Below, one piece after another: positions 2,347 through 61,074 of a stretch of DNA of 64,000 nt. The DNA lies in the NCBI GenBank assembly GCA_037833965.1, contig AP031352.1, positions 26,454,501 through 26,518,500 on the forward strand, given 5' to 3'. The notes beneath the pieces are model-generated. The model had not been told where the DNA came from, made no database searches, and saw only the letters and a program-made list of their open reading frames with translations. Position numbers and translations under genes: made by a program. The DNA comes from Marchantia polymorpha subsp. ruderalis (Eukaryota > Streptophyta > Marchantiopsida > Marchantiales > Marchantiaceae). The stretch's first letter is position 1, and each line of letters begins with the position of its first letter.

Positions 2347-3536
2347 GGTCGCGGGTAACAGATATGAGAGGGAAGGGCAGTCTGCCACGTTGGTCAAGCG
2401 AACGATCGCATGCCAGATGAGACAGGCATGGGGAGGGGTCGCGGTAGGACCCATCGGTCAAGGGAACGGTCAACAGCTGAATGTTTGACTGACCGCCTGA
2501 CTGGCTGACTGGAGCTGTTCCGCAGGAATGGAATGCAGCGATGGATGAATCCCAGCAGCAGCTACTGCCGCAGAAGAAGAAGTAGAAGAAGAAGGCGGAG
2601 AAGAAAAAAGCAGAAGATCAGAAAAAGAGGGACCGGGAAAGTAAGCAGGAAGAAGATCAGTAAGAGGGACGGGATGGGACGGGACGAGAGGAGACGGAAG
2701 AAAAGAGAAAAATATTCGTCGCAGCGACCGACTGAACTCGATGGGATGGGACTTGGAAAAGCACGACTGCTGCTGCTGCTGCTGCTTCTGATGCTGTTGC
2801 TGCTGGTGCTGTGGTTGTGTTGTGTTGGGGTTCTGTTGAGGTCTGTTGGGGGTTTGAATATGCTGCTGCAGCTGGACCTGGAGCCGAGGGGTTCGTTCAA
2901 TGACATTCTCGAATTTGGGGGTGACTGCGCAGCGAGGAGGGGTGGTTGTTTTGCTGCGGGGATGCGTGTGGGGGAGCGAGGCGAGAGTAAATTGGGAAGG
3001 GAAGACTCGAGGACCCGGCCAGGCCAGACAAGACCAGACCCGAGAGACCAGTCAACCACCAGGAACAGAACTGGGTTGAGTTGATCCGAATGTTCATCGT
3101 TTGCGGGTCGGTCTGGCGAGGCTGGGGATGGGCAGGGCAGGGCAGGGCACAGAGCAGTAGCAGCAGCACTGGACCAGCAGCAGTAACCATGTTCACACAA
3201 CAGAAGCGAGACTGACCGAATGACTGCCCTTGCCTTGCCTTGCCCTGGCCTGCCCTCCCTCCCTGCCTGCCTCTTGCCTGCTGCCTGCCTCACTGACTGA
3301 CTGACTGCCATGCCAACTCCATGCGTACAGGGTGGGGGCCGTTTGTTACCATGCTTGACTGCACATTCCAATCTTCGAGAGAAACAAAACAAAACGAACC
3401 CGAGCCTTTTCATTCCATTCAACGCAACGATCGCTGTCGCTGCTGTTGCGATGGACTGGAAAACCTTGTCTTTGAAATATTTTGACTTTACCAAAGTATC
3501 TTTTGCCTCAGGACTGGACTCGATACTCTCTGCAGA

Positions 3537-3579
3537 GCAGCAGCAGCAGCAGCGGCTACTCCTGCTGCTGCTGCTGCTG
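3537..3579. repeat. Inverted CAG/CTG trinucleotide hairpin
   Basis: Five or more CAG/AGC units (3537-3553) are followed after about nine bases by six CTG units (3562-3579), giving a self-complementary stem. Such a structure could form in DNA or in a leader RNA and would be prone to length change. Confidence 0.6.
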
Positions 3580-5364
3580 GTCTAGCTACGACAGCCACCC
3601 TTGGCTACCGTAGCTAGCTAGGTTGGCAAGCCAAGCCAAGCCAAGCGCTGCACTGCATTAGAGTAGAGGACGACTCCGGATGCTTCTCACTCACTCACTC
3701 ACTCACTCACTAACGCATACGCTTGCGATGGTCGCCTGCTGACTGCCATGGCAGGCAGTGCGCATTGCACCACCCGACCCCGTATCTGGGGTCTGACTCC
3801 AGTACACATGAGCCGTGTATGCACCCAGGTTCCGTTCGCCATCGCATCCCGGCCCGCATTTACTGGTCATCTATTTACTGCTGCTGGCCTCGCTCGGGTT
3901 TACTTTTTCTCCTGCTGCTGCCTTCTTTCTGTGCCCGTGCGATGAGGATGGTTGGATGCGATTGTGCAATGGGCAAGGTGCGAAGGATGCGATTTGCAAT
4001 GAAGCAGGGTGAGTGAGTGAGTGAGTGAGATGAGGTGAGATGCGATGTGATGCGATGCGATCGCATCACACTGCAGGGCAATGCGATCGGCATCACTTTG
4101 TTGGGTCTGGCTATGATCGCCTGCTTGCTTGGGGCACAGACCAACGAGCCTCTACAAGCGATCCCATCATAGTTAGCAGGAGTCGCGCCCACTTCGCTGC
4201 TTCTTACCTCCGTACCTTTACTTTACCTTTACCCTTGGCGTGGCATTAGTGTGTCCCCCTTGGACTTGGGTGTGGGTTTGGGTTTCGGTCTGGGCTGGCT
4301 GTGGCTTCATTCATTCTCAGCACAAGAGCAGCTCTGGGCCTTGTACTTTTTTTGGCTGTGTCCCGGGCCCGGGGCCCGGCCCCCACCCAGTGGCTGGCTC
4401 TCCACCCGACCCCAGCCCGGCCCTCCTCCCCTCCCTCCACCCCCCTCGCCCTCCACCTCTCTCTCTCTCTCTCTCTCTCTGATCGCGACGCGACAGCATT
4501 TTAAAACTTGTCCGCTCCTGCTCGCATCCGCGCACTGTCCGATGAGCTATATGAGGGAGCTGGGTTCGCGAGAGCTCTGCTCAGTAGTGCAGCCTGCTAA
4601 GCTTGTCTGTCTCGCTTTCCTTAGCTTGCTTCCGAGGGACGTTCTCACGCCTCAAAGCACTTGCTTCTTCCGCTTCCACAACCACAACCCAACCCCTCCT
4701 CTATCGGTCAATCCACCATCTCCTTCTTCTGTCTGCGCATGCCTGCCTGCCTGGGTGCCTGCGTGTCTGTCTGTCTGTCTGAGAGATGGATAGGTAAATA
4801 TGTATGAGGCATCGCATCGCATCGCATCGAGGGAGCGTGAGATAGATAGAGAGGGAGAGTGAGCGGGATAGTTAGATAGAGAGTCGCGAGCCGCCGTGCC
4901 TTCGCTCGCCTCGCCTCGCCTCGCCTCGCCTTGCCTTGTCCGGTCCGGTCTCGGGCCATCTTCTCCTTCTTCGGTGTTAGAGGATGTCTTCACATATTTA
5001 TTCATTCATTCATTCAGAACTCGCAACTACTTCCTTTCTGTCTGTAGCAGGCAGCCTACGAGAGAGAGACTGAGTGAGCGAGAGACTGAGAGAGCGAGCG
5101 AGAGAGAGATGGGCCAGCGTCCTCGTTCTGATTCAATCATTGATACCGACACCAATCCTTGTGATTTCTGCCCTTGTCTCCACTAGCAGCTCCGTCATCT
5201 GTAGATCTCGTATAACGCGCGAGGGACCGACATAGAGCCCAATGAAAGAAGCCTGGGGGTTCTCTGGGAGAGAAGATCGAGTAATGCGAAAGGGATGGGA
5301 GGGTTGTCCATGAGCAATACCTCCTCATCTTCTCATCGTGTATTTAGACTACCATCGACACAAT

Positions 5365-5412
5365 ATGATGACCGCCGCAACTTCTCGCGTTACGTGTCTC
5401 CGTCTCCACTCC
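5365..5412 (+). CDS. Possible first coding exon of the RAV-PB1 gene
   Basis: Two adjacent ATG codons at 5365 and 5368 open a 16-codon frame ending at 5412, immediately before a consensus donor GTAAGTAG at 5413. The next good acceptor, CTCCTACAG ending at 6018, joins it in phase 0 to the large open exon, with a 606-bp intron. If used, the protein would be about 1160 residues. The encoded residues have no recognisable motif, and an in-phase join occurs by chance one time in three, so this exon could equally be untranslated leader with translation starting at the ATG at 6187. Confidence 0.4.
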
Positions 5413-6018: not shown

Positions 6019-9000
6019 GATCCTAAGGAAATTGCGGACTTGTGGTCCAATGCTGTATTACGAAGCCAACGCTCACCACTTTCGACCCCCGGCAAGGGCG
6101 GTCCCGATGTTACTTTGAGACTGCGCGCCGTGTGGGATCAACAATCATCCACATCGAACACGACCGATGCGAGCTTGCAGCAGCAGATGACAAGCCCGAG
6201 ACTGAACCGACATGGTCTTACGTTAAATCACGAAGCTGCTCCGGGCGCCAGGACCACGCAGTCGTCCACCAGGTCTTGCGACAACAGCTCTTCTTCCAGC
6301 CCCCCCGAACAGCAGCAGCAGCAGCAACAGCAACACCAGCAGCAACAACATCACCACCATGAGCACATGAAGAGCCTCAACGCCAGCATCAACATCAACA
6401 CCGCCGTCAACTCATCGTCCTCGGACGACAAGGAACTAGTCACCGTGGAGCGCAAGACGGCCAAGCTCGAGATTGGCGAGCACCACCACCATCTCCACCA
6501 CCACCACTTCCATCAGCAGCAGATGGTAAAAAGCAGTCAACCCATCAAAGTCGAATGGGCTGAACGAGGAGCAGCAGCAGCAGCAGCAGCCGGGGCGGGT
6601 TCGGGGATCAATCTGGCCAATTTCTCTCAGAGCCACAAGCTCGAGGTGTCCGGGGACGTGAAGGATGAGGGCGCCGCGTCCGAGGAGTGTTCGAGCTCTC
6701 CGTGCTCGAGCTCAGACAAGCGCATGAACCTGGAGCTGGGCGCCTGCTCGCAGGATGACGCAGCGGCAGCAGCCTTGGTAGGAGTAGCAGCAGCAGCAGC
6801 AGCGTCGGCGGCAGCGGGAGAGAGGGGAGGCGAGCGAGGGCCCCCTTCGTGGGCGGGCACAGCGTGGGGTCCCGGGTGCGTGACCAATCCTCGCAGCAGC
6901 AGCTGCCTGAACGAGCGAGCTGCGAGCGAGAGGAGCTTCTCGGGAGTGTCGGGGGATGCGGTCACGGGGCCGCCCGAGGAGAGCTCGGACGGGGGCGAGG
7001 ACAGCCGCGGAGGCGTGCTGAAGGAGGGCGTGAACAAGCTGCCATCGTCGCAGTACCGCGGAGTGGTGCCGCAGCCGAATGGCAGATGGGGCGCTCAGAT
7101 TTACGAGAAGCACCAGCGCGTGTGGCTGGGCACGTTCAATCGCGAGGAGGATGCGGCTCGCGCCTACGACCGCGCGGCCATGAAATTCCGCGGGCGCGAT
7201 GCCATGACCAATTTTCGCCCCGTGCAGGAGACGGATCCTGAGGCCGTGTTCCTGCGCCAGTACTCCAAGGAGCAGATTGTCGAGATGCTGCGCCGGCACA
7301 CGTACGAGGAGGAGCTCGAGCAGAGCAAGCGCCTGGCGAGCATGCGCGTCACCTCGCCGCAGACGCCCGCGGGCATGGTGCCCAATCCGCCGAACGAGAG
7401 CGACGACCCGCCCTCGCTGCCGCCCAAGCCGACCATGCAGCGCGAGCATCTGTTCGAGAAGGCCGTGACGCCGAGCGATGTGGGCAAGCTGAACCGGCTG
7501 GTGATTCCCAAGCAGCACGCCGAGCGCTGCTTCCCGCTGGACCTGGCCTTGAATGCGCCGTGCCAGACCCTCTCGTTCGAGGATGTGTCGGGCAAGCATT
7601 GGCGATTTCGCTACTCGTACTGGAATAGCTCGCAGAGCTACGTGTTCACCAAAGGCTGGAGCCGTTTCGTCAAGGAAAAAAAGCTCGAGGCCGGCGATAC
7701 GGTGTCGTTCGAGCGCGGGCCCAACCAGGAGCTCTACATTGACTTCCGCCGGCGCCTCAACAATCAGGTCGCTCAGATGCTGCCGGGCCCGTCGACCTCG
7801 GCCTCCGATTTCGCTCGCAATCGCCCCTGGGTGCCGCGATTGCCCAACCCGGCTGGCGGCCTGAATCCGGCCGTGTGGCACCAGCTCAGCTTGCAGAACC
7901 TTCAATCGTCGCTCGAATCGAGGGAGCAGCTGCAAATGCTCTACGCGCGCCAGGCTTTCCCGCAGCACATGCACTCGCAGCAGCTCTCGAGTTTCTCGAG
8001 CCTCCAGCAGCAGCAGCAGCAGCAGCAGAGGCAACAGCAGCAGCACATGGAAAGTGGAGTGTCCCTCCCGCATCAGACGAGGACGGGGGACGACTTTTTC
8101 TCGCTGCTGGAGCTCGGGCGACGCACCGACGGCGGAGTGGCAGCCATGGACCGAACTGTCGTCGGTGCCTCGACTACGGTCGTCAAGCCGCAGCAGCTGC
8201 TCGCGGAAGGGCCTGTTTCGACGCCGTCGGCAGCCCCTGCCGGCGCGAGCGGGGGCACGAGGCTGTTCGGGGTGGACTTGGAGAAGACGTCGTCGTCGTC
8301 CGCTCAGAGAAGCACCGAGCGCGAATCCGCTGTGGTCTCGGGGCTGAACGACTGGAAGTCGCAGACGTACGCGCAGCAGCTGCAATCTTTGAGCAGGGCG
8401 TCGTCGTATCATCAAGGAGAGTCGAGCTTCCAGCAGCAGCAGCAGCAGCACTTGCCCACTGCGCGCATCCTGCCGTCGTTCCAAGGATCTTTGCATGGGC
8501 AGTCGCCCGCTCCGGTGCTGATGGCGGCTAGCGCCAAGCAGCAGCAGCAGCAGCAGCAGCAGGAGCAATCGTCATTCATGGGATTGTCAATTGTGCGAGG
8601 CCGAGCGGGCGAGCAATCGCCGGGCACGCGGCTCGCGGCCTCGCATTCGAATTTGCAGCTCGCGTCGTCGACCAACATGAACAGCGGCAGCGCAGCTCGC
8701 GCTGCCGGGGCCGGGGCCGAGCTGCAGGAGGCCGGGGCGAGGACGGTGGTGGCGCTGGGGCTGGCCGGGCCGCAGCAATTCGCAGGCGACAGCCGCAAGC
8801 GCAAGGTGGGAATTCTCGAGAGTCTGAAGAACTCGGGTCCGGCCGATTCGTACGCGAGGGACGGGGCGCCCGACACCTCGCTCTCGCTGGCTCAACATTC
8901 CGAGTCCACGACGCAGGTCTCGTTCACCACGGAGTCCTCGCATTTCTCGAGCAGCACGCAACCCAGCGGCAGTACCTCGACCGCCGAGGACCGGGAGCAG

Positions 9001-9453
9001 AAGTCTCCCAAGCGACATTGCTCGCCGGTGCAAGGCGCTCCCACAGGCAGCAGCAAAGCTTGCGCCGCGGGCCTGCCCTTGACCTCGACGACCACCGACA
9101 CTCGCGGCTGCCGAGTCGATCAGAAGCAGCAGCAGCAGCAGCAGCCCCCGCAGCCCGTCGCCAGTGCCAACACCACCAGCGGACCTCCCGGGGCCGTCGT
9201 CAAATGCCATCTGCAGTGGTCGCCCGAGAAATTTCTCAACATCAGCCTGGCCAATTTCCATTCCGTGGAGGGGCTCAAGCGCGAGCTGCTGCAGTTCACG
9301 CATTTGGACTTCGCCCAGGGCCTGGACATTGTCTACAAGGACAAGGACGGCGACATCATGCTGCTGTCGGAGCATTCCTGGGGCCTGTTCAAGGAAAATG
9401 TGCAGGAGATGTGGATCCGGAAAACCGAGCAGCCGCAGCAGCAGCGTGCGTGA
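6019..9453 (+). CDS. RAV-type AP2/B3 transcription factor with C-terminal PB1 domain (main exon)
   Basis: This is a large nuclear transcription factor. The exon starts after an acceptor at 6017-6018; its first in-frame ATG is at 6187, giving 1088 residues, or more if an upstream exon is used. Domains in order: an AP2 domain (7051-7221, starting [20 protein letters not shown]), a B3 DNA-binding domain (7447-7755, with [19 protein letters not shown]), an RLFGVDL motif (8260-8280), and a PB1 domain (9196-9432) with a lysine in its first strand (VVKCHLQW) and an acidic DKDGD cluster (9340-9354). AP2+B3 followed by RLFGV defines RAV/TEM repressors; PB1 is the oligomerisation domain of ARF, Aux/IAA and NLP proteins. 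The linkers carry many polyglutamine, polyhistidine and polyalanine tracts. Typical flowering-plant RAVs are about 350 residues and lack PB1. DNA binding and repression are inferred from the family. Confidence 0.93.
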
Positions 9454-21599: not shown

Positions 21600-24500
21600 C
21601 TGTCAAGTGGTTGTCAAGGTTCCAGCAATATAACACCAAAATGCAGGGATGAAAGGATACTACCTGTTACATTAACACCAAATGATTCTCATTGAAGTTT
21701 TGACATCTAGCTCTTAAAAAATTACATGGCTATTCACCCCAACCTCTCCTCATTATGGGCATATGCAGTGCTACTTTATAAATCTTGCTCATTAAACTTG
21801 ACACAGTGTTTAAATTCATCACGTTATTGTTGGAAAATATGCTCAAGTGAATTACTACACCCAATTTGTTCATTGCTTGTCAAAATATCGAAGATATCAA
21901 CCTGATCTAAAAAAGAAGCTGTTCAGACCAATTGTAAGAAATTAATGATTGTCTAAGTAAACCGCATGAAACACTAGAAGATTTATTGAAGACATTACTT
22001 CATGTATCTAGTGTTAAAATCAATGTCATAACACCTTTCCTTAACATTGCAAAACAATTTCACAATCTTTGAACAGTATATGTTCAGTGAAATAAATTTT
22101 GTTTCAATCTAATATCAAATCAGCATATGCATTGAAATTTATGGAAAAATCAAGATCATTTCAAATCTCATTTTTTTAGCTTTTGAGAAACTTGTATTCA
22201 AACTTGCAGCGAATATATGCTCACTACATATTTATAACATCAATCAATCATAAGGCAATTTTTTATCGATATACCTCTTTGGCTAATCTAATGATCTCTT
22301 CATGGTCAGTTCAAATTCAACCGTACAATCTTACTGTAGATAATCAGTTTTGCAAAGATTTTTGGATTCATCTAAAACATGTAATACATATTTCTTATTT
22401 TAAAAACATTAAAAAAATTAACTTACCAAGACAATCATATTTTTCTGATTTAAAAACAAAAATATTAGATTAAATTTTCAATCTAGTGATTTAATCACTA
22501 AATTCGAGCCAAGAAAAATATTAAAAAAATTTGGTTATCCAACTGGTTTTAAAATATAAATTTGTGCTAAATGCAATTTAATGTAAGTGACAAGGATTTT
22601 TTAGTTCTGCTTTGTAGCAAAAATTTCTTTTGTATTTTTAAAATTGAAATTTTTTTAGAATATACAAATTTTAAATCTTTGAATATTTATAAAATCTATG
22701 GCAAACTATCAGAATTTCAAAAAAAAACCCCCTGGAAATTTTTTATACTCAATTTCATAAAACATTGAAGAGATCATGAGAACGCTTTTGTTAAATTAAT
22801 CGTTTTGGCCAAAAATTTAAACCTCATTATGATGATATATGAAACAGATCATCTTACTGTGATAATGAAGTTTGTGAATATAGTATTATGAAGATGATTA
22901 ATTAATCTTTCCTGAGTATTTTTAGGATGTGCAAGTCAAAAATATTATGCTTTTGAAATAAGTGTAAAAGTTCAATAAATACTTGCTTAAAAATTAAGAA
23001 TACTGAAATTTATTACAGTATATTTTATTTAAATATTTTACAATTAGTCATCTGAATCATTAAGTGATATAATTTCATGAAACTAAATTCAAATAAAAAA
23101 TAGCTTAGATGTAGTAGGGTAAATGGCATTTTATAACATGAAATTATCAATGAATGATTGTGTAGACAACCATCATTCTTTAATCATTGCATTAAAAACA
23201 CATATCAACTCGTGTCATAATATTCAATAAACATCACACATCAATCACTTTGCTAGCTACACATTTCATAATCAACATATCCAGCTTATTTGAATAATGA
23301 TGTTGATGTTATTTTCAATCACCATTTCCATTTTTTAATAGTTGCAAATAAATATAGTTCAAAATATTTAAAATTGAATATTTTAGAAATACACTGAATT
23401 CAAAATGCTAACAACTCAACACACTACATACATGTAAATATTACCTAAACAATTCCAAAACTTAAATTTATTATGTAAGCAATATTTGACATGACTTATA
23501 ATAAGATTTGAACATCTGTAAATTCCAAATAAATGATAATGTTAGATATTTTTACAATAAAATAAGTTTTTCTATTTATTAAAAATACACTAATTTGTAC
23601 TATAAAAAATAAGTTTTTAAATCTAACAAGCTCAAAAACTTTTATGAAGTAAGATCTATTGTTTATTATTGAATATAGTATCTTGCATAGAGCATAGATT
23701 AAAATTTGAGTTTAAATATAATACAAAACTGCGTAATACAAATTATTAATCTTCTGAATAATACCAATGAATTCAGATATATATTTTTGGAAATTTCACT
23801 TTTATCTTTAATAAGTATCAAAATTATTTAAATACAAAATTTAGCTTATTGTTCAATCAAGATAAAAAGGGTAAAATTTGATTATGATGATATGAACAAA
23901 TAAAATCAGTAATAATTTTCTGAATTGAAAGAATAATACATTCAAAATTTTCAATATATATTTTCACGAAGCCTATCATTTATTTTTCTTCAGTCATCAA
24001 TAAAACTAATTTAATAACTTACAACTTTTTATCCAAGTTGGATTATAATATCATTGAATTAAAAAGCTGATGTTCAAAACAAATTATACCTCAAATTACT
24101 CGTTTTATAATGTAGTAAATTTTTTTATTTGCTTTTTAATCATTTATTACTTGATTGACATACTTCAATATAATTATAGTTATCATCAACACATTTTAAT
24201 AGCATCTCAAAATTTTTGACAAAAATCTGCTATTCTTTTATGCAAAAAATTCTAGAATTCATGATAATGTATATTTTTTTAAATATTATTTAAAATTAAA
24301 TCAAATATGAAATTATACATCATTTCAAAATTATATTTTTTTCATATATAATGAAATAAACATTCAAAGTAACAATAAACTTCATCATGTTTACTTGATT
24401 CACAATCTAATATGCTATAATTAGAAAATAATTGTCATTATTTTTTTATATATACAATGTATACAAGTACTTTTTTATCAACCAGCTAAAAGTGTTATTT

Positions 24501-25800
24501 ATTCTAATTTTCATCAGCTTCAAGATATAAGTAAAAATATCTTATTCATCAAAAATTTTAAAAGATCATCATATCATTAAACATTTTTTTGTAAATATTC
24601 ATTATACATATATGTATAATTATAAATAGTCAATGTTCTCAATGATGATATATATTGAATTATGTAGATTTTATATACTTAAGGAAAATATTGATCATTT
24701 TATGTTTGAACAAAAATTCAAATTTTCGAATAATTCATTGTATGTATTAAAAAATTTCACCAATAATCCAAAAATTTAATTCGTTTCAATGATTGATGAT
24801 ATGATTAAAAAAACATAGCATGAAATATATTCTTACATTGGAGCAATACATTAAAAAACAAAACAAAACATTCATAAGTTTTCAATGTGAGATCAAAAAA
24901 TTATTTTTTTAAAATAAAATAACAAAATTTCCAATTTGTTTCAACTTGATGACTAACATTTTATTAGATTGATAGCTTCAGTCAAAAAATGTAATACATT
25001 AAAATGTAGATAATTTCCTGCTGACTTGAATAAGCAAGAAGGTCATGATATTCATTACTATTTTGAAACATGTCATATTTACCCGCTGGATGATAAACAT
25101 TTAACTGAAGGAATGGACAATAATACCTACATAAAATAATCGTGATAACATCATCTATTTAATAATTTTGAAGAAACTAATGAGAAACAAAAATTAGTTT
25201 CATATTTATATTATAATAAATTGTGTCATGCAACACTAACTTTTCCAAAAAAACATAGACCACTAGATGTGCTTCATAGTTTCCTGTCAAAGTAACCTTC
25301 AAGAAATTGTTCTCACGTCCTAGCACTGTAATGAGAATTTGAGACGCCAAATCTCGAGATATTCTGTACAAATTTACATCTATGAGCGATCATGAGAACG
25401 TGTAGGAAACATAACTAAATATGACGGTAAGGTCCAATTAATTCTTTTGGTATGCTATCTTTTGATACAGATAGTACTTCAATTCCTGGTCTTATAACTA
25501 AACCCAATCATCTAGATATATTCACGTGCGTCGAGTATAACATTCGAAACCTTTGTGGAAAATATAAAAGTTATTCAAAATGTTGCGTGCATGACTACTT
25601 ATTTTTCGTTTTATAAACTTCGGATATGTTCTATCTCTATAATGTATTACAAATGGTGACAATATAATAAACGAAAAATATGACGTATCAAGTATTACAA
25701 CCCATTGAGATTACAAGCTATAGATGTATAAGTTTTTAATTATTGAAACACATCAATATTACATGATGACAAAAAATTAAAGAGCGGTAACATAGTTCGC
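21600..25800. other. AT-rich intergenic block
   Basis: Composition changes abruptly near 21600 from GC-rich to strongly AT-rich and changes back near 25800, with no intact gene between. Apart from one possible gypsy-like relict at 22180-22473, only short frames broken by many stops are seen. It is most likely old, decayed transposon DNA. Confidence 0.6.
22180..22473 (+). mobile_element. Possible Ty3/gypsy RNase H relict
   Basis: An open stretch of about 96 codons in AT-rich DNA contains INHKAIF, then LANLMISSWSVQIQPYNLTV. This resembles the DH(K/Q)AL ... (L)xRWxLxLQxYxF segment of the RNase H region of Ty3/gypsy polyproteins. Only this segment aligns; I see no integrase or LTRs around it. 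The match is from family patterns by eye and could be chance in a low-complexity frame. Confidence 0.3.
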
Positions 25801-26205
25801 AATTTTAATAGGCGAATTCATCTCGACTACAACAACTCTCCTCCTCAGCTAAAGGATTAATTTCTCATGGCAAGCAATTTGAAGGACATCCGGCACAAAT
25901 ACTATTCAACTCGAAACTTCGAAGGATGAGACATTCAAGAAGGGCCCGGATGTACAAGCTTGATGAGGCCATTATGCCATCCTAACATGGGTCAGTCACT
26001 GTCAAGACTCATTTGTTACAATGTTGGTACACACCAAAGCCCGGGCACCAAGAAAGGCATTGGCACTTGATTCTCGCTCCGAAGAGCAGATTCCAGCTAA
26101 TTTTTGGATCTACGAATCGAGATTCTTACCTCTTAACAAAGCTCTTCATCGGCGAATGCATAATTTACACAGGAGCGCGACTTCGCTGGGCTAAGCACTC
26201 TTCCA
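25801..26205. other. 3' flank of the LPA2-like gene
   Basis: About 400 bases downstream of the LPA2-like stop codon, intermediate in base composition. Probably 3' untranslated region and intergenic DNA; no frame here shows a motif. Confidence 0.5.
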
Positions 26206-30429: not shown

Positions 30430-33400
30430 TCAGGGCTCGGGTTGACAGTCCTTCAACAAACCGACGACTTGCTGCATAGTAGGTCGCTTTGAGGGAGCTT
30501 CCGCAGTGCACAGATAACCTATTCTCAGCACTTCTTGGATCTGGGCGACGTCTCCTCGACTTACAAGCTTCGGATCCAGGGCCTTCAGCTCTCTTTTATC
30601 TTTGATCAACATTCGAACCCACCCCACCAGATTTCCTCCATAGCTGTCGTGGAAGTAATGACCCGTGGGCATTCTCCCGGTCACTAGCTCCAACAGCACG
30701 ACTCCAAAACTGTATACATCCCCCCTCGTGGTAGCCTGCCAGGTCTGGCCATATTCGGGAGGAACATAACCCATAGTCCCTCCGTTGACAGGAGTTCCGC
30801 TGGGCTTCCCAACGCCAGCGAGCCCGGCATCCACCAGGCGTGCCTCGAAGGACTCGTCCAGCAGAATGTTGCTCGCTTTGACGTCTCGATGTACAACATG
30901 AGGGGAATTGCCGTGGTGCAGAAAGGCAAGACCTCTAGCGACCCCGAGCGCAATCTTGTGACGTGTTGGCCAGCTTAGAAATTCGCCGGAAAGGTCATCC
31001 GCATTAGGCTCGTCCAAGTGCTCCCAAGTGTCCCTACTCCAGTCCTCCGGATTTCGAGTTCCCTCTGGCAGTTCGTGTAGCCATCTCTGCAAGTCTCCGT
31101 TCACCATGTACTCGTGAATGAGAAGGCTGTCCTCTCCAACGAGGCAGTAACCCGCGAGTGTGACTAGGTTTGGATGCTTGATTTTTGCTAGTGCCTCAAT
31201 TTTCGCAACTGCATCCTTGCCATCGGCGAATTTGACTTCCACAAGAACTTTGATTGCGAACTGGGTACCATCTGCCAGCATTCCCTTGTATACAGGACCG
31301 TAGCCACCGTCAGCAATCTGCAGCTCTTTGTTGAAGTTGGCTGTTGCCTGCAAGAGGTCGGCGAAAGTCAAGCTGAGTAGAGGCTTTTCGAACATGACGA
31401 CCGGGATGTTGTGCGGATCCTTGATTCCCTTTGCCCACAATTCTGCATCTTTGTCGAAGAGGATGGGACCCGACACGTGCCTGGTTTCATCCTTGCTTAA
31501 TGGTTTCACGGCCATGGACACTCGACACCAGATGAACATACCAACGGCGACCAGCACCACGAATGCAAGAGCGGTAACCAGGCCGATGATGAGGCCCTTC
31601 CTATCGTCGGAATCCGAGGCCCCCTCAGAACTGAGTGTTCCTTTGGGCCCTTGCGAGCACTCCGAATCAGGGACATTGAGCTGTAAACCACACAGATACG
31701 GATTTCCCGCAAAGGAAGAATTCGTGTAAGTCAACCACTGATTTTTGGTTGGAATGATGCCGCTCAAATTGTTGTTGGAGAGATCCAAGCTGCTCAGAGA
31801 CGTCAAGAGGGTCATATCGTCCGGAATCGCTCCCTGCAAATGGTTAGAAGCCAAGTTCAAATTCTCCAGATCCTTCAACTTGCCCATCTCCGCTGGGATA
31901 TCGTTCACGAGATCATTGAACGACAGGTCGAGAACTTTCAGCAGTTTAAGGTCACCAATCGCGGACGAGATGTTGCCGCCTAGATTGGTTCTTGAGAGAT
32001 TCAAGACCTCCAGTCTGGCTAAGTTGGACAGAGACACGAGCTGCTGCAATGTGTAACTGGAAAACCCGTTGTCGGCTACGTTGAGTCGTGTGAGGTTCGA
32101 CAGAAGGGTGACATTTGATGGAAATGCTCCCGTAAATAAGTTGGAGGAAAGATCCAAGTACTCCAGGGAGACCATGGCGGACAAGGATGGCACGCTTCCA
32201 CTCAACTGGTTGTCAGCTAGACCGAGTCGTTTCAGGCTCGACTGAAGGCTGATGTCTGGCGGAAGGCCTCCTTCGAATTGGTTGAAGGAAAGATCCAGGT
32301 ACTCCAACGATTGGACATCGTTCAACCCTGGCACAGGTCCGCTGAAAGAATTGGAACTGAAATCCAGCCTGAGAAGACCAGCGGCAAGGCTTGGAAGCTT
32401 CCCGGAAAAGTTATTGCCGTGAAGATCCACATCCTCCAGCGGACTCAGCAACAAAGCGGGCAGCCGAGTAGTTTTCAGGGGGCCTGAGAACTTGTTCCTC
32501 CCTAGTTTCAAGACTCTGAGTTGGGGAAATTGCAATAAGTTGCTAATCACGGTGTCGCCATCTAGCAGGTTGGACTCCAGATCAACCACTGAAAGATTTC
32601 CCCCAGTCCCAGTCGAAATCGACACCGGGTTAGTCAGACTGTTGTACGCCAGATTCAAGTGTCTGAGCCTGAGCGACTGGAATAACGTGTCCGGTATGGG
32701 TCCGCTGAAGTCATTTCTCGCAAGATGCAGTTCCTCCAACGTAGATATCTTACTTAAGGCGTCTGGGAAGGGCCCCACGAAACTGTTCGATGAAAGATTT
32801 AAGCTCAGCAGAGAAGCACAGCGCTCAAAGCTCGTGGGAATCAGCCCAGTGAACCTGTTCGAGCCCAAATGTAAGGTTCGGAGGTTACGTGGTGCATCGC
32901 AAAACCCGTCAGGAATCGTCCCGTTAAAATTGTTGCCCGACAGGTCCAGATTTGTGAGCGCCCTGAGAGATTGAAAGGCATTCAGAACATCACCTTCGAA
33001 CTTGTTTGTGGATAGATCGACTTGCACGAGTGCAGAAAGAGCCCGAACAATATCCGTAACCGATCCGCTGAAATTATTCCTCGCGAGATTCAAATTTACG
33101 AGATTCGCAAGCTGCGGCAAGTCGATCGGAAGAGACTCCGTCAGATTATTGTCGGAAAGATTCAAGTCCGTCAGGAATGTCAAGTTCGAAAGTGTGCCCG
33201 GCGGGATTTGTCCTGATAGACCAAAGCCAGTCAAATTCAACATGGAGACACGCCCGCTGTTCACGCACTGCACCCTCGCAGCATTCCAGTCACAAGGATT
33301 CACCGTCGCGTTGTAATTATCACTATGCCCAGGACGAACACTGTCCATGAATTTCTCCAGCGCCAGCCCGTCACTTCTACCATCCTGCTGCCCTTCTGCT

Positions 33401-33462
33401 CTGTCCCAAAGTATCGTGAACAAAAACAGCACCCAAGCCAACGCCCTATAGGCGCCCGCCAT
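30430..33462 (-). CDS. LRR receptor-like kinase of the At2g24230 type, DAG instead of DFG
   Basis: A 1010-residue single-exon protein. The start is the ATG at 33462; the frame stays open ten codons further, but only to a TTG. It has a signal peptide (residues 1-24), an N-terminal cysteine pair (C57, C66), about twenty leucine-rich repeats to about residue 575, a membrane helix near 622-646, and a kinase domain from about 700. Kinase features: glycine loop GGYGPVYKG (from G719), lysine K738 in FAIKVL, HRDVKASN at 858-865, then VDAGLAG where VDFGLAG is expected (D878-A879-G880), and a normal PPEYGQ segment. The juxtamembrane stretch (PVVMFEKPLLSLTFADLLQA) and NGDLQRWLHELPEG match the Arabidopsis At2g24230 group as I recall it. 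It would sit in the plasma membrane; its ligand is unknown. The metal-binding aspartate is kept, so activity is possible but uncertain. Confidence 0.93.
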   Translation of the reverse strand: MAGAYRALAWVLFLFTILWDRAEGQQDGRSDGLALEKFMDSVRPGHSDNYNATVNPCDWNAARVQCVNSGRVSMLNLTGFGLSGQIPPGTLSNLTFLTDLNLSDNNLTESLPIDLPQLANLVNLNLARNNFSGSVTDIVRALSALVQVDLSTNKFEGDVLNAFQSLRALTNLDLSGNNFNGTIPDGFCDAPRNLRTLHLGSNRFTGLIPTSFERCASLLSLNLSSNSFVGPFPDALSKISTLEELHLARNDFSGPIPDTLFQSLRLRHLNLAYNSLTNPVSISTGTGGNLSVVDLESNLLDGDTVISNLLQFPQLRVLKLGRNKFSGPLKTTRLPALLLSPLEDVDLHGNNFSGKLPSLAAGLLRLDFSSNSFSGPVPGLNDVQSLEYLDLSFNQFEGGLPPDISLQSSLKRLGLADNQLSGSVPSLSAMVSLEYLDLSSNLFTGAFPSNVTLLSNLTRLNVADNGFSSYTLQQLVSLSNLARLEVLNLSRTNLGGNISSAIGDLKLLKVLDLSFNDLVNDIPAEMGKLKDLENLNLASNHLQGAIPDDMTLLTSLSSLDLSNNNLSGIIPTKNQWLTYTNSSFAGNPYLCGLQLNVPDSECSQGPKGTLSSEGASDSDDRKGLIIGLVTALAFVVLVAVGMFIWCRVSMAVKPLSKDETRHVSGPILFDKDAELWAKGIKDPHNIPVVMFEKPLLSLTFADLLQATANFNKELQIADGGYGPVYKGMLADGTQFAIKVLVEVKFADGKDAVAKIEALAKIKHPNLVTLAGYCLVGEDSLLIHEYMVNGDLQRWLHELPEGTRNPEDWSRDTWEHLDEPNADDLSGEFLSWPTRHKIALGVARGLAFLHHGNSPHVVHRDVKASNILLDESFEARLVDAGLAGVGKPSGTPVNGGTMGYVPPEYGQTWQATTRGDVYSFGVVLLELVTGRMPTGHYFHDSYGGNLVGWVRMLIKDKRELKALDPKLVSRGDVAQIQEVLRIGYLCTAEAPSKRPTMQQVVGLLKDCQPEP

Positions 33463-34950
33463 CCCAGATGCTGCACTAAAAACCTGATTCAATCAACTGT
33501 CAGAGCGAACGTCGTCGTGTTGCATAAAACCCAATGTTCTACGAAGCTAAACCCCCCTGCGCAGGATTCCACTTTCCACCCCTATCAAAGACACACGCAG
33601 AACAAACCACCAAGAACCTCATCTCCTCAGCTTCCGCACACCAGCGCCCTCCTCCTCCTGCGCAAAGTTCACTCGCATCGCAATCCCGTCCGCCCTCGGC
33701 ACCCATTGCCTCAACATTCCGACTCCCTTCTCGCACCACACGCCCCTCGTTCGTGCCCTCCCTCCCTCACTGACACGCCCCACTCGATGACTCGTTGACT
33801 ATCCGCAAAACTTGAACTCGATCTCGATCTATCATCAGTTGACCATCTGCAATCTTAGACCTCTATCAATCTAAGCAACCACAAGGCGATGGGGCGGCCC
33901 GCAGTCGAGCTGACTTTTTCGACCCTGAGTCCGAGTCCGAGTCCGAGTCCCTCGTCACCTTTCCTTCTTTCTTGTTTGTCTCCACGCGAACGAGAGACTC
34001 GTCCTCTCGTCTCGCGAGGCGCCGGATGTTCTAGTCCAGCCGATAATATAGTCCGTCTGTCAACAAGACAAACGATTAATTCTTTTCTTGAAGTTTTTAG
34101 CAGTCGATAGGTTGGTAGCTCGAGCTTATGAGCGAGCGAACGAACTATCGAACGAACGAAGAACACTTCAACGAACGAACAGAACGAACGACGCGAACGA
34201 CCCTCTCTCTCTCTCTCGCTCGCTCCCTCGCGCTTTCCCTCTCTTCTCCTTCTTCTACTTCTTGCTGCTGCTCGTGATTACAAGACCTGCAGACCAGAAT
34301 TGACCGCCCGCCCAGAAAGCATGCCCGCCCGCCCGCGCGCCCGCCCTTCCGCCAGCTAGCCAACCAACCAGCCAGCCTCAAGACCGCTCGAGCGCCTCAA
34401 CACCAAGTGCTGCTGCTGCTGCTGCTACTACCACTACTAGCAGCGCGACAACACCGCATCGCAACGACAGATTCGCCATCATGATCCTGGCACCTGCTGC
34501 TTCCCTCCATCGCTGCTGCTCCTCCGCTCCCCTGGCTTTCCAGAATCGAGGACCAGAAAGGACCGAATGCGGGCGCCATTGGAGGGTCCTGCCCTCGTCG
34601 CCGGCCCAGGACCGGCCCAGACCAGCGAGACATGGAAAAGCGGCCCGTCATTTTCTGCGCCCGCCCGCCTCCTAATTCTGACAGCGTCAGGACATCTGGA
34701 CCCGCGATCCGCTGCTCCGCCCGGCCCTGTGCCCAGTGCAGCAGTGCGTTTAACTGCCTCTCTGCCAGCGATCCGCTGCTGTCTTACACCTTCTCCGGCC
34801 CTGCGATTCCTGGTCCTACCCTTCGTTCGGTGCAGTACTCCCCCCTTGCATACTGTACTTACGGTGGAGTGGAACGCAAAAGGTGGACTCTTATTCTTGC
34901 TCGTTCATTTTCTAGGACCATACAGTTCCTGCTTGGTTTTTCATCCAATT
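33463..34950. other. Leader/promoter region of the receptor kinase
   Basis: GC- and CT-rich DNA upstream of the minus-strand receptor kinase, with (GAGTCC)n-like units near 33930-33950, GAAC repeats at 34135-34200, CT runs near 34203-34225 and a (CTG)n tract at 34407-34427. It resembles the leader of the RAV-PB1 gene in texture. No coding motif is seen. Confidence 0.55.
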
Positions 34951-52228: not shown

Positions 52229-52299
52229 GCGCAGCTGGTGTAGTGGTATCATAGTACCCTCCCACGGTACTGACCGGGGTTCGATTCCCCGGCTGCGCA
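52229..52299 (+). tRNA. trnG-CCC: tRNA-Gly (anticodon CCC)
   Basis: A 71-nt cloverleaf without intron. The acceptor arms GCGCAGC and GCTGCGC pair perfectly, with discriminator A at 52299. The D region has the A-box TGGTGTAGTGG. The anticodon stem GTACC/GGTAC encloses CTCCCAC, giving anticodon CCC (glycine). The T arm CCGGGGTTCGATTCCCCGG is the B-box. A TTTT stretch follows directly. It is a nuclear Pol III gene. Confidence 0.95.
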
Positions 52300-52390: not shown

Positions 52391-52463
52391 TTCCGTAACC
52401 GGGACTCGAACCCGGGTCGTCTGGGTGAAAGCCAGGTATCCTAACCATCTAGACTATTACGGA
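52391..52463 (-). tRNA. trnE-UUC: tRNA-Glu (anticodon UUC)
   Basis: A 73-nt cloverleaf on the minus strand without intron. The acceptor TCCGTAA pairs with TTACGGA, with discriminator A. The A-box is TAGTCTAGATGG. The anticodon stem CCTGG closes the loop CTTTCAC, giving UUC (glutamate). The T arm is CCGGGTTCGAGTCCCGG. It closely follows the usual plant nuclear tRNA-Glu. It converges on the tRNA-Gly gene, with 91 bp between their 3' ends. Confidence 0.95.
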
Positions 52464-53046: not shown

Positions 53047-54177
53047 CTAGCCTAGAAGTCTTCTGAAGAGAACCCAAACTTCAAACGACAGCCACCATGG
53101 CTTCTTCTTGGCATTAGGAGCTTCGTCCTTTCTTCTCGACCGGAAGAATGTACGCATGATCATGGAACAATCATCGGAAAGAACTTCTCGACGCACTTCC
53201 ACAGATTTATGGAAGGGATGCTGCTGCTGCTGCAAGGAAGATTGTTCTGCTTCTCCATCGACATGTGATTCGCAGTTGGGGAACAGACTGACCCAGCTCC
53301 CGTCGGCACCGAGGAGCTTGTTGCGCGCGCCCCACACCACTCTCTTCACCCTGGCTTGCAGCAGAGCGCCCGCGCACATGGCGCACGGCTCCATCGTCAC
53401 GTAGATGCTCGCATCGGTGAGGCGCCAGTCGCCGTTCGTCTTCGACGCGCTGCGGATGCACAGCATTTCCGCGTGTGCGGTGGGATCTCCCTCCGCTTCC
53501 ACTCGGTTGAACGCTCGCGCGATGATTCTCCCGTTCTGCACGACGACGGCGCCCACGGGCACCTCCCCGAGACTGGCGGCCTTCTTGGCCTCCAGCAGCG
53601 CCTCCAGCATGAATTTCTCGTCCTCCACGTCGTTCCACTGACACTGCGTCGTCTGCTTCTCTTCGTCCCTTGAGCGACCCGCACCTCTAACCACAGTCCT
53701 AGCTCTCGGGAATTCGCCCCCGCTGCTTGTTGATGATTCCTCTTCAGACTCTTGCTCTCGATGGCCCCGTCTGCCTCTTGCTCTCGGTTCGACATCGTCG
53801 GTGCAGCTGCTTACCTTCTGCTTCTCGTCAGAAATCGCTGCCTTCGAGTAACTCTGCTGCTCATTTCCAAGAGGGTCGTCGCCCCCGCCGACGTCTTTCA
53901 AGTCGGCGCTTGCACTGGACCGACCGCCATTTGTCCCGATGGAGGAGTAAAGCTCGAAGCGCACCCCCTCGAAAAGGCCAATCAGTTCCAGGAATGGCGC
54001 ATGTGGACTGGTCTTCACGGACTCTTGAACAGAGACGAGCAGTCGTCGGGGATGTTGTTTCCTGTACGCAGCAGCATACTTTGCCCTCGATGCTACAGCC
54101 TTGCAGTTTCCCCCGACGATTCGCTTCAGCAGCTCTGCTCGTGCGAGTAGCGCTGGAGTGAACGTCAATGTGTCCAT
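53047..54177 (-). CDS. TADA: Plastid-type tRNA adenosine deaminase (TADA)
   Basis: A 376-residue intronless frame from the ATG at 54177. The N-terminal 200 residues are basic and serine-rich with no domain, suitable for plastid targeting plus linker. The C-terminal half is the TadA/CMP-dCMP deaminase fold: GEVPVGAVVVQNGRIIARAF, then the zinc site H235-A-E237 and PCAMC with C265 and C268. The H-to-C spacings of 30 and 33 residues are those of E. coli TadA (H57, C87, C90). It continues KRVVWGARNKLLGADGSWV. The enzyme deaminates A34 to inosine in the ACG anticodon of chloroplast tRNA-Arg. The Arabidopsis protein is above 1300 residues as I recall, so this version is unusually compact. Further 5' exons are not excluded but not seen. 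Confidence 0.9.
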   Translation of the reverse strand: MDTLTFTPALLARAELLKRIVGGNCKAVASRAKYAAAYRKQHPRRLLVSVQESVKTSPHAPFLELIGLFEGVRFELYSSIGTNGGRSSASADLKDVGGGDDPLGNEQQSYSKAAISDEKQKVSSCTDDVEPRARGRRGHREQESEEESSTSSGGEFPRARTVVRGAGRSRDEEKQTTQCQWNDVEDEKFMLEALLEAKKAASLGEVPVGAVVVQNGRIIARAFNRVEAEGDPTAHAEMLCIRSASKTNGDWRLTDASIYVTMEPCAMCAGALLQARVKRVVWGARNKLLGADGSWVSLFPNCESHVDGEAEQSSLQQQQHPFHKSVEVRREVLSDDCSMIMRTFFRSRRKDEAPNAKKKPWWLSFEVWVLFRRLLG

Positions 54178-54935
54178 ATCCCGTTCTTAGGAAAATCGTC
54201 GAGAGATGCGGTCCTCTCATACATTTCTTGAGTACGGCGCCATCCTCGTTTTGCCAGAGGCAGCCAAGCAGATTGTCCTTGTAAGCCTCGAAGCGCCGAG
54301 GATTCCTTTCTACCTCATTAGAAAAGCTGGATCAGCGTCGTATCTTCACATTCTCCTCAAGGGTTGTACGCCGGCTTTGTATGAAACTGGGACAAGACCT
54401 CAGTATGTAAAACCTGTCCACAGATGCCGAGCGTTTGGATTCCCGAGAGCTGGGAAGGCGATTACAGAATAGAGGAGATTTGGCCCTTCGAGTTCCATTC
54501 ACCGCCGACTAAGCAGCACAAAGATACACCGAAGGGGGTTTGAGAGGCTGGAGACCTATTACTACATCTGGGCGTCCCTCACGCTCTCTTGTCATACCTC
54601 ACCACTCCCGGGCATTAATGATTAAGGCCCGGGAGTGGAGCTTTCACGGAAGGTGAGGTACAACAAGATGATTAACGATTATGCGCGCTACCTGTAGTCG
54701 TCTTCCCAGAGCTCTGATTCTTTTCTCTTAAAATTTGGGTCCATGTTTTGTGGGAGACGCTGCCTTCTGACTCGACTTCGGACGCTTCTTTATGTAGGAG
54801 TGATAAAGGGAGGACTCCACCTGCGGATCTTGTGAGGCTCTGTCTCCCAGCCTCTGATGTTCGGAGACATGCATCTGGACATCGACTCTTGTTGTCTGAA
54901 CTCTTGATCTAACAATGAAACGGTATTGCGATTAA
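54178..54935. other. Upstream region of TADA with nested inverted repeat
   Basis: Leader/promoter side of the minus-strand TADA gene. A plus-strand frame at 54206-54472 has no domain. A nested inverted repeat occupies 54594-54660 (listed separately). AT-rich DNA begins near 54900. Confidence 0.5.
54594..54660. repeat. Nested inverted repeat
   Basis: CCACTCCCGGGC (54602-54613) and its exact complement GCCCGGGAGTGG (54627-54638) flank the AT-rich loop ATTAATGATTAAG. A second pair, TACCTCACC (54594-54602) and GGTGAGGTA (54652-54660), brackets them. It could be a small fold-back element or a regulatory palindrome near the TADA promoter. Confidence 0.7.
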
Positions 54936-57420
54936 TTGTTTATAATCCTCACGGTTAAAATCTCACTATTTTCTTCAACATTTGAGATTTCATTATTGTT
55001 GTCTGAGTATCATCATCTAATAACGTCATCTAATAACATGGAGTTCAAGGTGCAAAAGATGATTAAGAGCACGTTAAATATCGTCATCGTTTTAAGAGTT
55101 GCCTTCACAACCTCAGCAAGGAGCATTGTGATCTCAGGATTTAATTTCATTCAGATTTACCTCGTATGGATTTTTGTAGCTCATCATGATTTTAGAAAAA
55201 AAAGATTTATTTATATGATAGTTTCACAAACAAACTCTCACACAATCTTTCCACTCATCACTCAAATCCAATCATTCAATGACACTCCAAGATATGTAAT
55301 TTAATATGTTATTGATGGAAAAAAATTTCACACAATGAATACTCCAATTTTGCTTGGAAGTATACTTTCTATCTCTTTATTTAAACAACTTGAAAAATTA
55401 CGATAATAATATATGATAATTATTATCTAACTTAATTTTACTAAGAAAATTGTTGATAGGTTTGACTAATTTTCATTAGGTGTTAATATGTCATTGATAT
55501 CTTTAACTTTCTTGAAGTTTTCTTATCCCTAGCTTGAGATGATGACATGTCATTTGAAATCTTGACATTTTTTTTCTTTAGTTAATTTTCTTGGATTACT
55601 CGACATTCTAGAATTTTTATTTGTCACTAATTCAACTTTAGATAAAATTTAGTTATACTAAAATTTAGTTTAATTAATTCATAGAAACGTCACAATGGAC
55701 AATTTCATGTGTGCAACGGAAAAAAATGACGGTCATAAATTCAGAAATAGAAAGATATGATATAATCAAATAAAATAAACCTTGTAATTATCTACTCGAA
55801 GAAAACAAGTCAAAGACAAGCTAAATGCTACTTGTTTGGACAAGACAATAAAATCTAAAACATTCTTTTATAACAACAATAGAAATATGTTAAGAATACA
55901 CAAGTATAACAATATATGTATGTTAAAAGATATTATTATCTTTGGTCTAGTCAATTTTATTAATTTTGAAATCGAGATGTAAATAGTTGATAAGATTATG
56001 GTAAAATACATAAGCATGACAATCTATTTATGTTAAAAGGCAATACCATCTTTGAAAAAATATATTTTACTAAATATTAATTTGCACTAACTCATGTATG
56101 GTAAAAAAGCATTATCATCTTTGATGAAAAATATTAGATTAAATATTTAGGTGCAATGTTTCATGTATGGTAGAGAAGCATTATCATCTTTGCTTAAATG
56201 TATTTTACTAAATAATGAATTGCAACGACTCATGTATGTCATTTTAGTATATGACAATTGAGTAATATCTACTTGATACTCCTTGGCAATAGAAATGTGT
56301 TACCAGTCATAGATAAACTTGATGAAATAGTAAGAATATTATGATGTGAACAAACATCATAGAAAAATCTTTAGTGTTTGAATTCATAGTGTAAGAAAGT
56401 TATGAAAATATGTACATAGTGATGTTTGAAGGTCTGTTCTAAAAATATCACTATCTGGAAAATTAAACATAGTATCATTTATTTATGAATATTATTGTGC
56501 GGATTTATGTTTTGACACAAAATTCTAAAGTTTTTACAATTCTCAAAAGTTGGAAATTCCAAGTTAAAATCAAATTAGACATAAGGTGAAAAATCTACTT
56601 ACTAAAGAATAATAAGTATTATGTTTTTTGGCAATTTACAAGTTAATTCAAAGAAAAGTACATTTGTCATCTCATCAATTTTATGCTTTGCAAAGGAATA
56701 TTTATACTGAAAAACTCAATTGATCTGTGTTGAAAAAGATACAAAGTATGTTATGCCAATTCAATGTATCATATATATTTTGGATAAAGTTTGTCAATAG
56801 CATAATACGCTTGGTACTTTTTTAATCCTTGTTGTGACTTAAAATCCTTTACATCATTTAAAATGAGACGTAAATGGATGATTGATTATAATTTTTCAAA
56901 AAAAATGTTATATCATTTATCCTTTCATACATAAAAGTTTTTTTACCAAATCATAAAACATTAAAAAATATTATTTTTATAAATATGATTGTGGTGAAGA
57001 ATTATATGCTATATAATACAATAGCTTGTAATATTATTGGTAGTAGGTATTTCATTGTGATGAGCATACTTCACTAGAAAAAAAAGATTTAGTGCACTCC
57101 TTCACTAATACAAATAATGATTAGATGTGATTTGATCACTATAAATTTAATCATGTGAAAAAATGGAAATTTCTAATACAATCAAAGCAAATTTTTGAAG
57201 AAAAAAAATTAAATAGCAAGTTATTGTTGGTGAATTTCAAATATACAATGAAGATCATTGGATTGGATGAATGAAGCTTCTACCAGGTATAAAATATGAT
57301 GTGATTGATTCAATTTTTTATCTTATGATATTGACATTGATGATAATGATGTAAAAACATGATCTTGAAAAAGAACCTTAACTTTTATATAGAGCATCAA
57401 TTTTCTATCACTATGTTTGA
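54936..57420. other. AT-rich block, decayed mobile DNA likely
   Basis: Strongly AT-rich. The longest frame (54936-55304, plus) has no domain and starts at a TTG. A minisatellite occupies about 55913-56240. The remainder has dense stops; parts just before 57421 may belong to the copia relict but could not be aligned. Confidence 0.5.
55913..56238. repeat. Minisatellite with 69-bp period
   Basis: The motif (T)CATGTATG-like + GTTAAAAG/GGTAAAAA + ATTATCATCTTTG recurs with starts at 56023, 56092, 56161 and 56230, an exact 69-bp spacing. A more distant copy sits 110 bp before the first. Units are diverged in their second halves. Confidence 0.75.
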
Positions 57421-57700
57421 GTGAAATTGCTTTACAGCATGAGATGCATAACAAGACCTGAAGTTAGTGGTTTTTAGTTAAGCTAATAAAGCTTAACTAA
57501 AAATCAACGCTTTGTTGATAGCTAGTAGATATACAAGCTGAAAGACAATCCAATTGAGTATATCATTTTCAAAAAAATATATTTCAAAACCCGGTTGGTG
57601 GTTACAATTTTTTGTTTATTTGAAGCAAAATATGCTCTAATTTAACTAGTATGTGCATTTTGCAAAATATCTAATCTGGTTTCAAATAATATGAATATAA
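57421..57700 (+). mobile_element. Ty1/copia relict, copy 1 (end of RT to RNase H)
   Basis: The frame VKLLYSMRCITRPEVSGF (57421-57474) matches the SLMYxMVCTRPDIAY block after the copia reverse transcriptase. About 85 bp later, ISFSKK (57560 on) and LFEAKYALI (57619-57642) match the RNase H stretch ISWxSKKQ...(S)EAEYxAL. Stops and frame changes interrupt it, so it is dead. A 14-bp inverted repeat (57471-57484 with 57490-57503) lies inside. Confidence 0.55.
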
Positions 57701-57801
57701 TTACAACAATTTTTTAGATTGTTGTAATTACATGAAACGACTACTTGATATTCAGAAAAAAAATTAAAATATTTTGATTTGTAGATTGTTGTAATCATTA
57801 T

Positions 57802-58600
57802 ATGGATTGGAGCAAACTCTTAGAAAGTAAAATGCAAAGTTTGATGAGTTCATTAAAACACAAATTTTTTACGAAGTGTGCATTTTCATATACATACATG
57901 AAAAATATAAATAATAAGATAAAATTTATTATTCTTGTATCTTATGCTGATGACATGCTTATCTTGTCAAACATTTATGTTGATTAAGTAATCATATTAG
58001 ATACTAAACTCTCTTTCATATAACAAATAGAACGTAAAATGGATGTGAAATGTTAACCTAATTAAGAATAATGTGACCAATCCAACACACCAAACTAATT
58101 TGCCATTTCTTGTGGACCTTAATGTTGCAAAAGTCTAACTAAACTTTTGCGATTCAAGCGTCTTTACAAAATTTTATGCACCGGAATCTTGGGTTAGAGC
58201 TTAGTTTAGAGAAATTCAATCACACATCAACAAATACAAGAATCAACTTAAATCTGCATTCAAGATGAAAAATTTGACTAAATTGAAGAGTTTGTTATGG
58301 ATAGATGCTCATAAAGATTTGAAGAAGAAAAATCTATGATTAAGTGAAGACAAGTATATACTACATGTGCTTTACAAGTTTAACATGGCAAATAGTAAAA
58401 AATCTTGAGTGTTTTGGAAGCGCGTTTAAACTTTACGCAGCTCAAATTCCAATTTATGACTCTTGAATAAAATTTTTTTTATCAATTTTTGATGACAAAG
58501 CCATGAGCAGCCTCATGTATTTGATGGTGTGCATAGTACAATATGTTAATATGGCTTTGAGATTTTGCATGCAGAGCACTAATTAAATTTCACTAGCAAT
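57802..58600 (+). mobile_element. Ty1/copia relict, copy 2 (reverse transcriptase)
   Basis: Three pieces appear in the order expected of a copia reverse transcriptase. FIILVSYADDMLILSN (around 57925-57972) is the catalytic YVDD region with YADD in place of YVDD. LKSAFKMKNLTKLKSLLWID and the following LSEDKYILHVLYKFNM (about 58245-58390) match LKxxFEMKDLGxxxxILGM and LSQxxYIxxxLxxFxM. DKAMSSLMYLMVC (58494-58532) matches the SLMYxMVCTRPD block. In-frame stops separate them. Because this block also occurs at 57421, two copies or a duplication are present. No LTR was found. Confidence 0.75.
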
Positions 58601-60438: not shown

Positions 60439-60442
60439 TCGT

Positions 60443-61074
60443 CTATGTTTTTCTCCTTTTTGCAGGTTTCTTCTTGTTTCTGGTTGCAACTGCAGGTTTC
60501 TTCCTCTTTCTGGTTGAAACTGCAGGTTTCTTCCGTTTCTGGGTGCGTACATCATCCTCCTCATCGCTTTCTGTCTCTGTTCTTCTCGACGAACCTCCAG
60601 AAGAACTGTTTGAGTCTTCCGACTCAGCCGACGAACCTCCATAATAACTGTCTGAGTATTCCGACTCAGCCGACGAACCTCCAGAATAACTGTCTGAGTA
60701 TTCCGACTCAGACGACGAACCTCCAGAAGATCTGTCTGAGTATTCCGACTCAGTCGAGTTGTTCTTTCTGGTTGCAACTGCAGGTTTCTTCCTCTTTCTG
60801 GTTGAAACTGCAGGTTTCTTTCTGGTTGAAACTGCAGGTTTCTTCCTCTTTCTGGTTGAAACTGGCTTTCTAGGAGAGAGAAGAACTAGAGAAGGACTGT
60901 CTGACGGTTCCGAGGGCTTTTTTGATTTCCTCACTTGTTTCGTTCTCTTTTCTCCTCTCTTCTTTGGCGTTTTCTTCACTTGTTTCGCTTGTTTGGTTTT
61001 GTCTTGTTTGGTTTTGTACTTTGGGCGGCTGATCCTGCGACGTAATTCCGTACGTTCAGAGATCTGTCGACCTC
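60443..61074 (-). CDS. Terminal exon with basic and acidic repeat tail, unidentified protein
   Basis: After an acceptor-like GAAAAGTAG the frame begins GGRQISERTELRRRISRPKY and continues to a stop after KKPAKRRKT. The middle has four copies of a 14-residue acidic unit (42-bp period from 60588 to about 60757) of the type SYSGGSSAESEYSD. On both sides are KRKKPAVSTR-type basic repeats. The composition suggests a nuclear or chromatin-binding tail with many phosphorylation sites. It has no known domain. Upstream exon candidates lie to the right (61258-62710), but their phases do not yet join. Confidence 0.45.

Follow-up and report, generated by a model that had tools for sequence, protein, structure and literature searches.

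A RAV gene of Marchantia polymorpha with AP2, B3, a repression motif and a C-terminal PB1 domain in one reading frame

The window, a 64-kb stretch of the Marchantia polymorpha genome whose positions are used as coordinates below, contained a gene for a RAV-type transcription factor, very probably MpRAV. The gene was dominated by one open frame on the forward strand (6019–9453), composed of 1144 codons and a stop, and residues were numbered from codon 1 of this frame. An AP2 domain, a B3 domain, an RLFGV repression motif and a PB1 domain were arranged in that order within it, which agreed with a preliminary description of this DNA that had placed all four in one protein. In 500 dinucleotide shuffles of 6019–9453, read in the three forward frames, the longest open run was 613 codons and the mean was 266. 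The G+C content at third codon positions (GC3) of this main coding exon was 0.68–0.93 in 300-base windows across 6100–9399, and it was 0.80–0.93 across 7000–9399, compared with 0.47–0.62 in the sequence flanking the gene. Because GC3 remained at a coding-like ~0.8 all the way between B3 and PB1, the linker joining these domains was taken as coding sequence and not as an intron. The PB1 stretch might instead belong to a separate downstream gene or to an exon removed by splicing, in which case no single protein would carry all four elements. Such an arrangement would suit a gene structure read from sequence alone and the scores of the PB1 stretch under the Pfam cut-offs, but the 1144 stop-free codons, the unbroken GC3 and the published accounts of MpRAV with a PB1 domain (PMC11685440, PMC6797205) make it very improbable.

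The start of the gene differed from that in the preliminary description. Position 6019, which had been given as the start, was not a start codon and was located directly 3' of a likely splice acceptor, a pyrimidine-rich CAG site (...CCTCCTACAG) with its last base at 6018. A short first coding exon (MMTAATSRVTCLRLHS) was predicted at 5365–5412 on the forward strand. This predicted exon of 48 bases opens with ATGATG at 5365, is followed by a GTAAGT donor at 5413, and would be joined through the acceptor at 6018 in phase 0, in phase with 6019. The alternative start was the ATG at 6187, the earliest in-frame ATG of the main exon. Beneath the gene, the reverse strand carried a 618-codon frame (6712–8568), G+C-rich and with CAG runs, which was most likely a by-product of composition.

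The AP2 domain (7051–7194, residues 345–392) scored 37.5 bits with Pfam PF00847 (cut-off 33.3) and the B3 domain (7453–7755, residues 479–579) scored 91.6 bits with PF02362 (cut-off 30.1), both on the forward strand. The order was RAV-like, with AP2 located N-terminal of B3. In a sequence search of the PDB, the closest solved chain to AP2 was TEM1 (7et4, E 1.3e-43), and the closest chains to B3 were NGA1 (5os9, E 1.2e-46) and RAV1 (1wid, E 4.3e-43), together with TEM1; the AP2 and B3 matches to NGA1, RAV1 and TEM1 chains had E values between 1e-46 and 5e-40. The best ARF chain reached E 1.4e-21, and the aligned part was B3 with a short preceding stretch. The string WNSSQS, a reported mark of RAV B3 domains (PMC6797205), was located inside B3 at 7621–7638. 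The sequence RLFGVDLE, the B3 repression domain (BRD), was found at 8260–8283 on the forward strand between B3 and the C-terminal domain; it belongs to the R/KLFGV motif described for RAVs (PMC10272232), and [KR]LFG occurred only this once in the 1144 residues. The protein is a RAV by its AP2 placed before B3, the WNSSQS of its B3 and its R/KLFGV motif, and the earlier proposal of a complete RAV that keeps the repression motif and also bears a PB1 domain was borne out in these features.

Features of ARF and Aux/IAA proteins outside PB1 were also sought. The ARF dimerisation and ancillary domains gave no Pfam match, and at E values up to 1 only B3, AP2 and AUX_IAA were reported. The AUX_IAA match covered only profile positions 180–213, which is the PB1 end. 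Domains I and II of Aux/IAA proteins carry motif strings, a co-repressor motif and a degron. A motif search of the 1144 residues found no GWPP or WPP degron string, and an LxLxL (EAR-type) string occurred once, within B3, and nowhere else in the protein.

The PB1 domain was located at 9199–9432 on the forward strand, with limits set by eye, in the same frame as AP2 and B3. Its first strand bears a lysine (VKCHL), and the acidic sequence YKDKDGD was located at 9334–9354, so that the basic and acidic elements named in the preliminary description were both found. On the positive face, the lysine of SPEKF may supply the second basic residue; it was placed by eye opposite the R in the GR of ARFs. 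Pfam AUX_IAA (PF02309) gave 15.2 bits with the whole protein and 21.5 bits with the isolated domain, missing the cut-off of 22.7, and Pfam PB1 (PF00564) gave 14.4 bits with the isolated domain, not reaching 23.6. The preliminary description had named a failed PB1 profile match as grounds for refutation; AP2 and B3 were confirmed by the profile check, and PB1 fell narrowly short of the AUX_IAA threshold.

The domain was compared with six PB1 pieces from the same genome (IAA, ncIAA-like, ncARF-like, ARF1, ARF2 and ARF3). When aligned by hhalign with a profile of the six, the RAV PB1 gave an E value of 4.9e-6 and a probability of 86% over 47 of 68 columns. The pairwise scores with IAA, ncIAA-like and ncARF-like pieces were matched by none of 2000 shuffles each, and those with ARF1 and ARF2 by two and one of 2000, respectively. 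The ARF3 exon, an incomplete piece, did not stand out in the pairwise comparison: 758 of 2000 shuffles scored equally well. The highest pairwise score was with Aux/IAA, by a thin margin among the six (65, against 62 for the runner-up), and this agrees with the published clade of Aux/IAA and RAV PB1 domains (PMC11685440). The gaps in a MAFFT alignment fell in strand 2. A single-sequence structure model of the domain had a mean pLDDT of 58, which is poor; its 15 best Foldseek matches were all PB1 domains, with a best E value of 0.18 and none significant alone. A PDB sequence search with PB1 alone returned 11 sequences at E values up to 10 (best IAA4, 0.13), none of them significant, and a search of the genome with the RAV PB1 found no match besides itself at E values up to 1, which marks it as distant from the ARF and IAA domains. 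A C-terminal PB1 domain in the RAV frame is supported by the profile comparison and by the shuffles (five of six pieces), and weakly by the low-confidence fold search.

The genome searched contained 241 Mb in nine contigs, and the window was located on contig C3. At least nine B3 matches, counted exon by exon, were listed, and the RAV B3 was the top scorer among them. Among the matches listed, just one other B3, of ARF type, spanned model positions 1–100 and the remaining seven were partial; WNSSQS was present in none of the other eight matched stretches. Two ARF2 stretches were identical to chain 6sdg, which is MpARF2 (PMC10690724), at 31 of 31 and 70 of 70 aligned residues. At 0.86 Mb of C3, one of 16 bromodomain matches was located ~0.9 kb from the only BRWD_AD match of the genome at E values up to 1 (E 0.028, under its cut-off). 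This pair fits MpPHIP (Mp2g00710), which is on the same chromosome as Mp2g22250. Because of the domains and their order, the B3 ranking with WNSSQS, the ARF2 match and the MpPHIP-like locus on the same contig, the gene is very probably MpRAV (Mp2g22250), an assignment by inference and not by a letter match to the published sequence. MpRAV was reported as single-copy (PMC11685440), and Mp2g22250 and Mapoly0072s0102 were taken as one gene from the shared name.

A second RAV candidate at 14.9 Mb of contig C6, with B3 and AP2 2.4 kb apart, was rejected; its B3 was not of RAV type by eye, and several AP2 repeats followed. In this region (C6:14901000–14910900), a B3 exon (2651–3076, 50.4 bits) was preceded by sub-threshold Agenet (16.9 bits) and BRWD_AD (15.6 bits) matches and followed by a zf-C3Hc3H stretch (3100–3876, 44.5 bits), then by two further frames, one of 1334 codons that contains three AP2 stretches and one of 444 codons whose AP2 match was under threshold. 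All of these were on one strand within 8.5 kb and, if they form one gene, would encode an unusual Agenet/B3/zinc-finger/multi-AP2 protein.

RAV proteins with PB1 are already described and tested in print, and they are older than bryophytes. Charophyte AP2-B3-PB1 'proto-RAVs' were reported in 2018, when land plant RAVs were held to be without PB1 (PMC5873896), and PB1 together with a RAV B3 was noted in charophytes and M. polymorpha in 2019 (PMC6797205), and the remark in the preliminary description that such forms may have been noted in early-diverging plants was correct. DNA binding and PB1 oligomers were measured for KnRAV of Klebsormidium nitens (PMC6797205). A common ancestor of RAV and ARF with B3, BRD and PB1 was proposed in 2024 in Nature Communications (PMC11685440). 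Bryophyte and streptophyte algal RAVs were reported to bear PB1 and tracheophyte RAVs to be without it (PMC11685440, PMC6797205). The link between the RAV and ARF families had been suggested to be an ancestral or bryophyte-specific state; the published ancestry agrees with the former, and PB1 is not bryophyte-specific because streptophyte algal RAVs bear it too. The absence of PB1 from tracheophyte RAVs (PMC11685440) and the best within-genome PB1 score, that with Aux/IAA, would also suit a recent event, specific to liverworts, in which a PB1 of Aux/IAA type was fused to a RAV gene, but streptophyte algae including Klebsormidium carry AP2, B3 and PB1 in one protein (PMC5873896, PMC6797205, PMC10272232), which makes such a fusion extremely improbable.

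The evidence was best joined in one reading, which we hold with high confidence: the gene is MpRAV, the single RAV of M. polymorpha, with binding of the RAV element, recruitment of TOPLESS, PB1 oligomers and an inherited PB1. AP2 and B3 together would bind the bipartite RAV element (CAACA plus CACCTG), as reported for AtRAV1 and the Klebsormidium orthologue KnRAV (PMC6797205, PMC10272232). RLFGV would recruit a TOPLESS-type co-repressor, by analogy with AtRAV1 and from the motif, and the net effect of MpRAV would be repression. Through the C-terminal PB1, the basic face of one RAV molecule would bind the acidic face of the next in a head-to-tail arrangement, and several DNA-bound RAVs would thereby act together; self-joining of the MpRAV PB1 has yeast evidence and is supported by a domain swap into MpARF1 (PMC11685440). 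PB1 would have been inherited from the streptophyte ancestor of RAV and ARF and not newly fused, and the RAVs of flowering plants would have lost it.

The preliminary description had also raised the possibility of head-to-tail joining with itself or with auxin-response proteins. In yeast two-hybrid assays the MpRAV PB1 interacted strongly with itself and weakly, in one direction only, with MpIAA and MpARF3; an MpARF1 chimera with the MpRAV PB1 gave mild rescue and no auxin response; and the Mprav mutation in the Mparf1 background left phenotype and auxin-induced expression unchanged (PMC11685440). The two-hybrid and swap results were restated in a 2025 review (PMC12041631). The self-joining part of the claim was upheld, whereas the evidence to date does not support in planta joining to auxin-response proteins, given the weak one-way two-hybrid signal, the swap without auxin response and the unchanged Mprav Mparf1 plants.

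RAV might nevertheless act within auxin signalling, with PB1 joining MpIAA or MpARFs and placing RAV targets under auxin control. The thin-margin top score with the Aux/IAA PB1, the weak two-hybrid signals, the co-expression of MpRAV with MpARF1/2 in sporelings (PMC6174852) and KnRAV, which enhances KnLBD1 and was implicated in its auxin (IAA)-induced expression in 2023 (PMC10272232), are consistent with this; the unaltered phenotype and auxin response on Mprav mutation, in a mutant made only in the Mparf1 background, and the unresponsive chimera argue against it, and we consider it unlikely. Similarly doubtful is a version in which the MpRAV PB1 cross-links with MpIAA or the class C ARF in particular cells, as a second, weak route for PB1 proteins to RAV targets, and in which the gene may be indispensable to plants that are wild type in other respects, a background in which Mprav mutants were reported as not recovered (PMC11685440). 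In the favoured reading, PB1-bearing RAVs are living evidence of a shared RAV/ARF ancestor with B3, BRD and PB1, and this ancestry makes them relevant to the origin of auxin response, a case already argued and tested in print, very probably with the window gene. The window contributes an independent check of the gene anatomy and the predicted short first exon.

Other features were found in the genome and the window. At C4:24566500–24574500, an ARF1-like DNA-binding-domain sequence lacked the introns present in the ARF1 locus, and its aligned pieces contained four in-frame stops; it resembles a processed pseudogene. At C3:3628500–3637500, a PB1 exon shared 75% identity with the ARF1 PB1 exon across 65 residues, and a single ARF DNA-binding query matched nothing within 9 kb; the exon fits a non-canonical ARF (ncARF), a name from published papers. 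On the reverse strand of the window, a leucine-rich-repeat receptor kinase was located in one 1020-codon stop-to-stop frame (30433–33492), and a cytidine/deoxycytidylate-type deaminase domain in a 379-codon frame (53050–54186; MafB19-deam 121.6 bits, dCMP_cyt_deam_1 109.2 bits). The genes for tRNA-Gly(ccc) (52229–52299, forward) and tRNA-Glu(ttc) (52391–52463, reverse) were on opposite strands. In 2-kb steps, G+C fell sharply to 23–26% at 22001–26000 and 56001–60000 and was 30 to 63% in the rest of the window. The stretch 60441–60874, within an open frame on the reverse strand, contained short tandem repeats, most of them 30 or 42 bases long.

When the window protein was compared with known systems, ARFs had B3 and BRD in common with it, and the PB1 domains of ARF and Aux/IAA were reported to be of the same clade as the RAV PB1 (PMC11685440). 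However, its B3 was far closer to RAV/NGA and no ARF dimerisation or ancillary match was found in it, whereas Aux/IAA proteins differ by the sequence outside PB1, where no Aux/IAA match was found, and by the GWPP degron, absent here. Arabidopsis TEM1 (AP2 and B3) and RAV1 and NGA1 (B3) matched it at E ≤5e-40, and the R/KLFGV motif is common to it and to other RAVs (PMC10272232). Unlike the window protein, tracheophyte RAVs were described without PB1 (PMC11685440, PMC6797205). KnRAV (kfl00094_0070) shares AP2, the RAV-type B3, BRD and PB1 (PMC6797205, PMC10272232), and differs in that it is the orthologue of an alga and has been implicated in the induction of KnLBD1 expression by IAA (PMC10272232). 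MpRAV (Mp2g22250/Mapoly0072s0102; PMC11685440, PMC6174852) has the same AP2, B3, BRD and PB1 in one protein, is single-copy and has a PB1 that resembles those of ARF and Aux/IAA; compared by description, it and the window gene are probably without differences.
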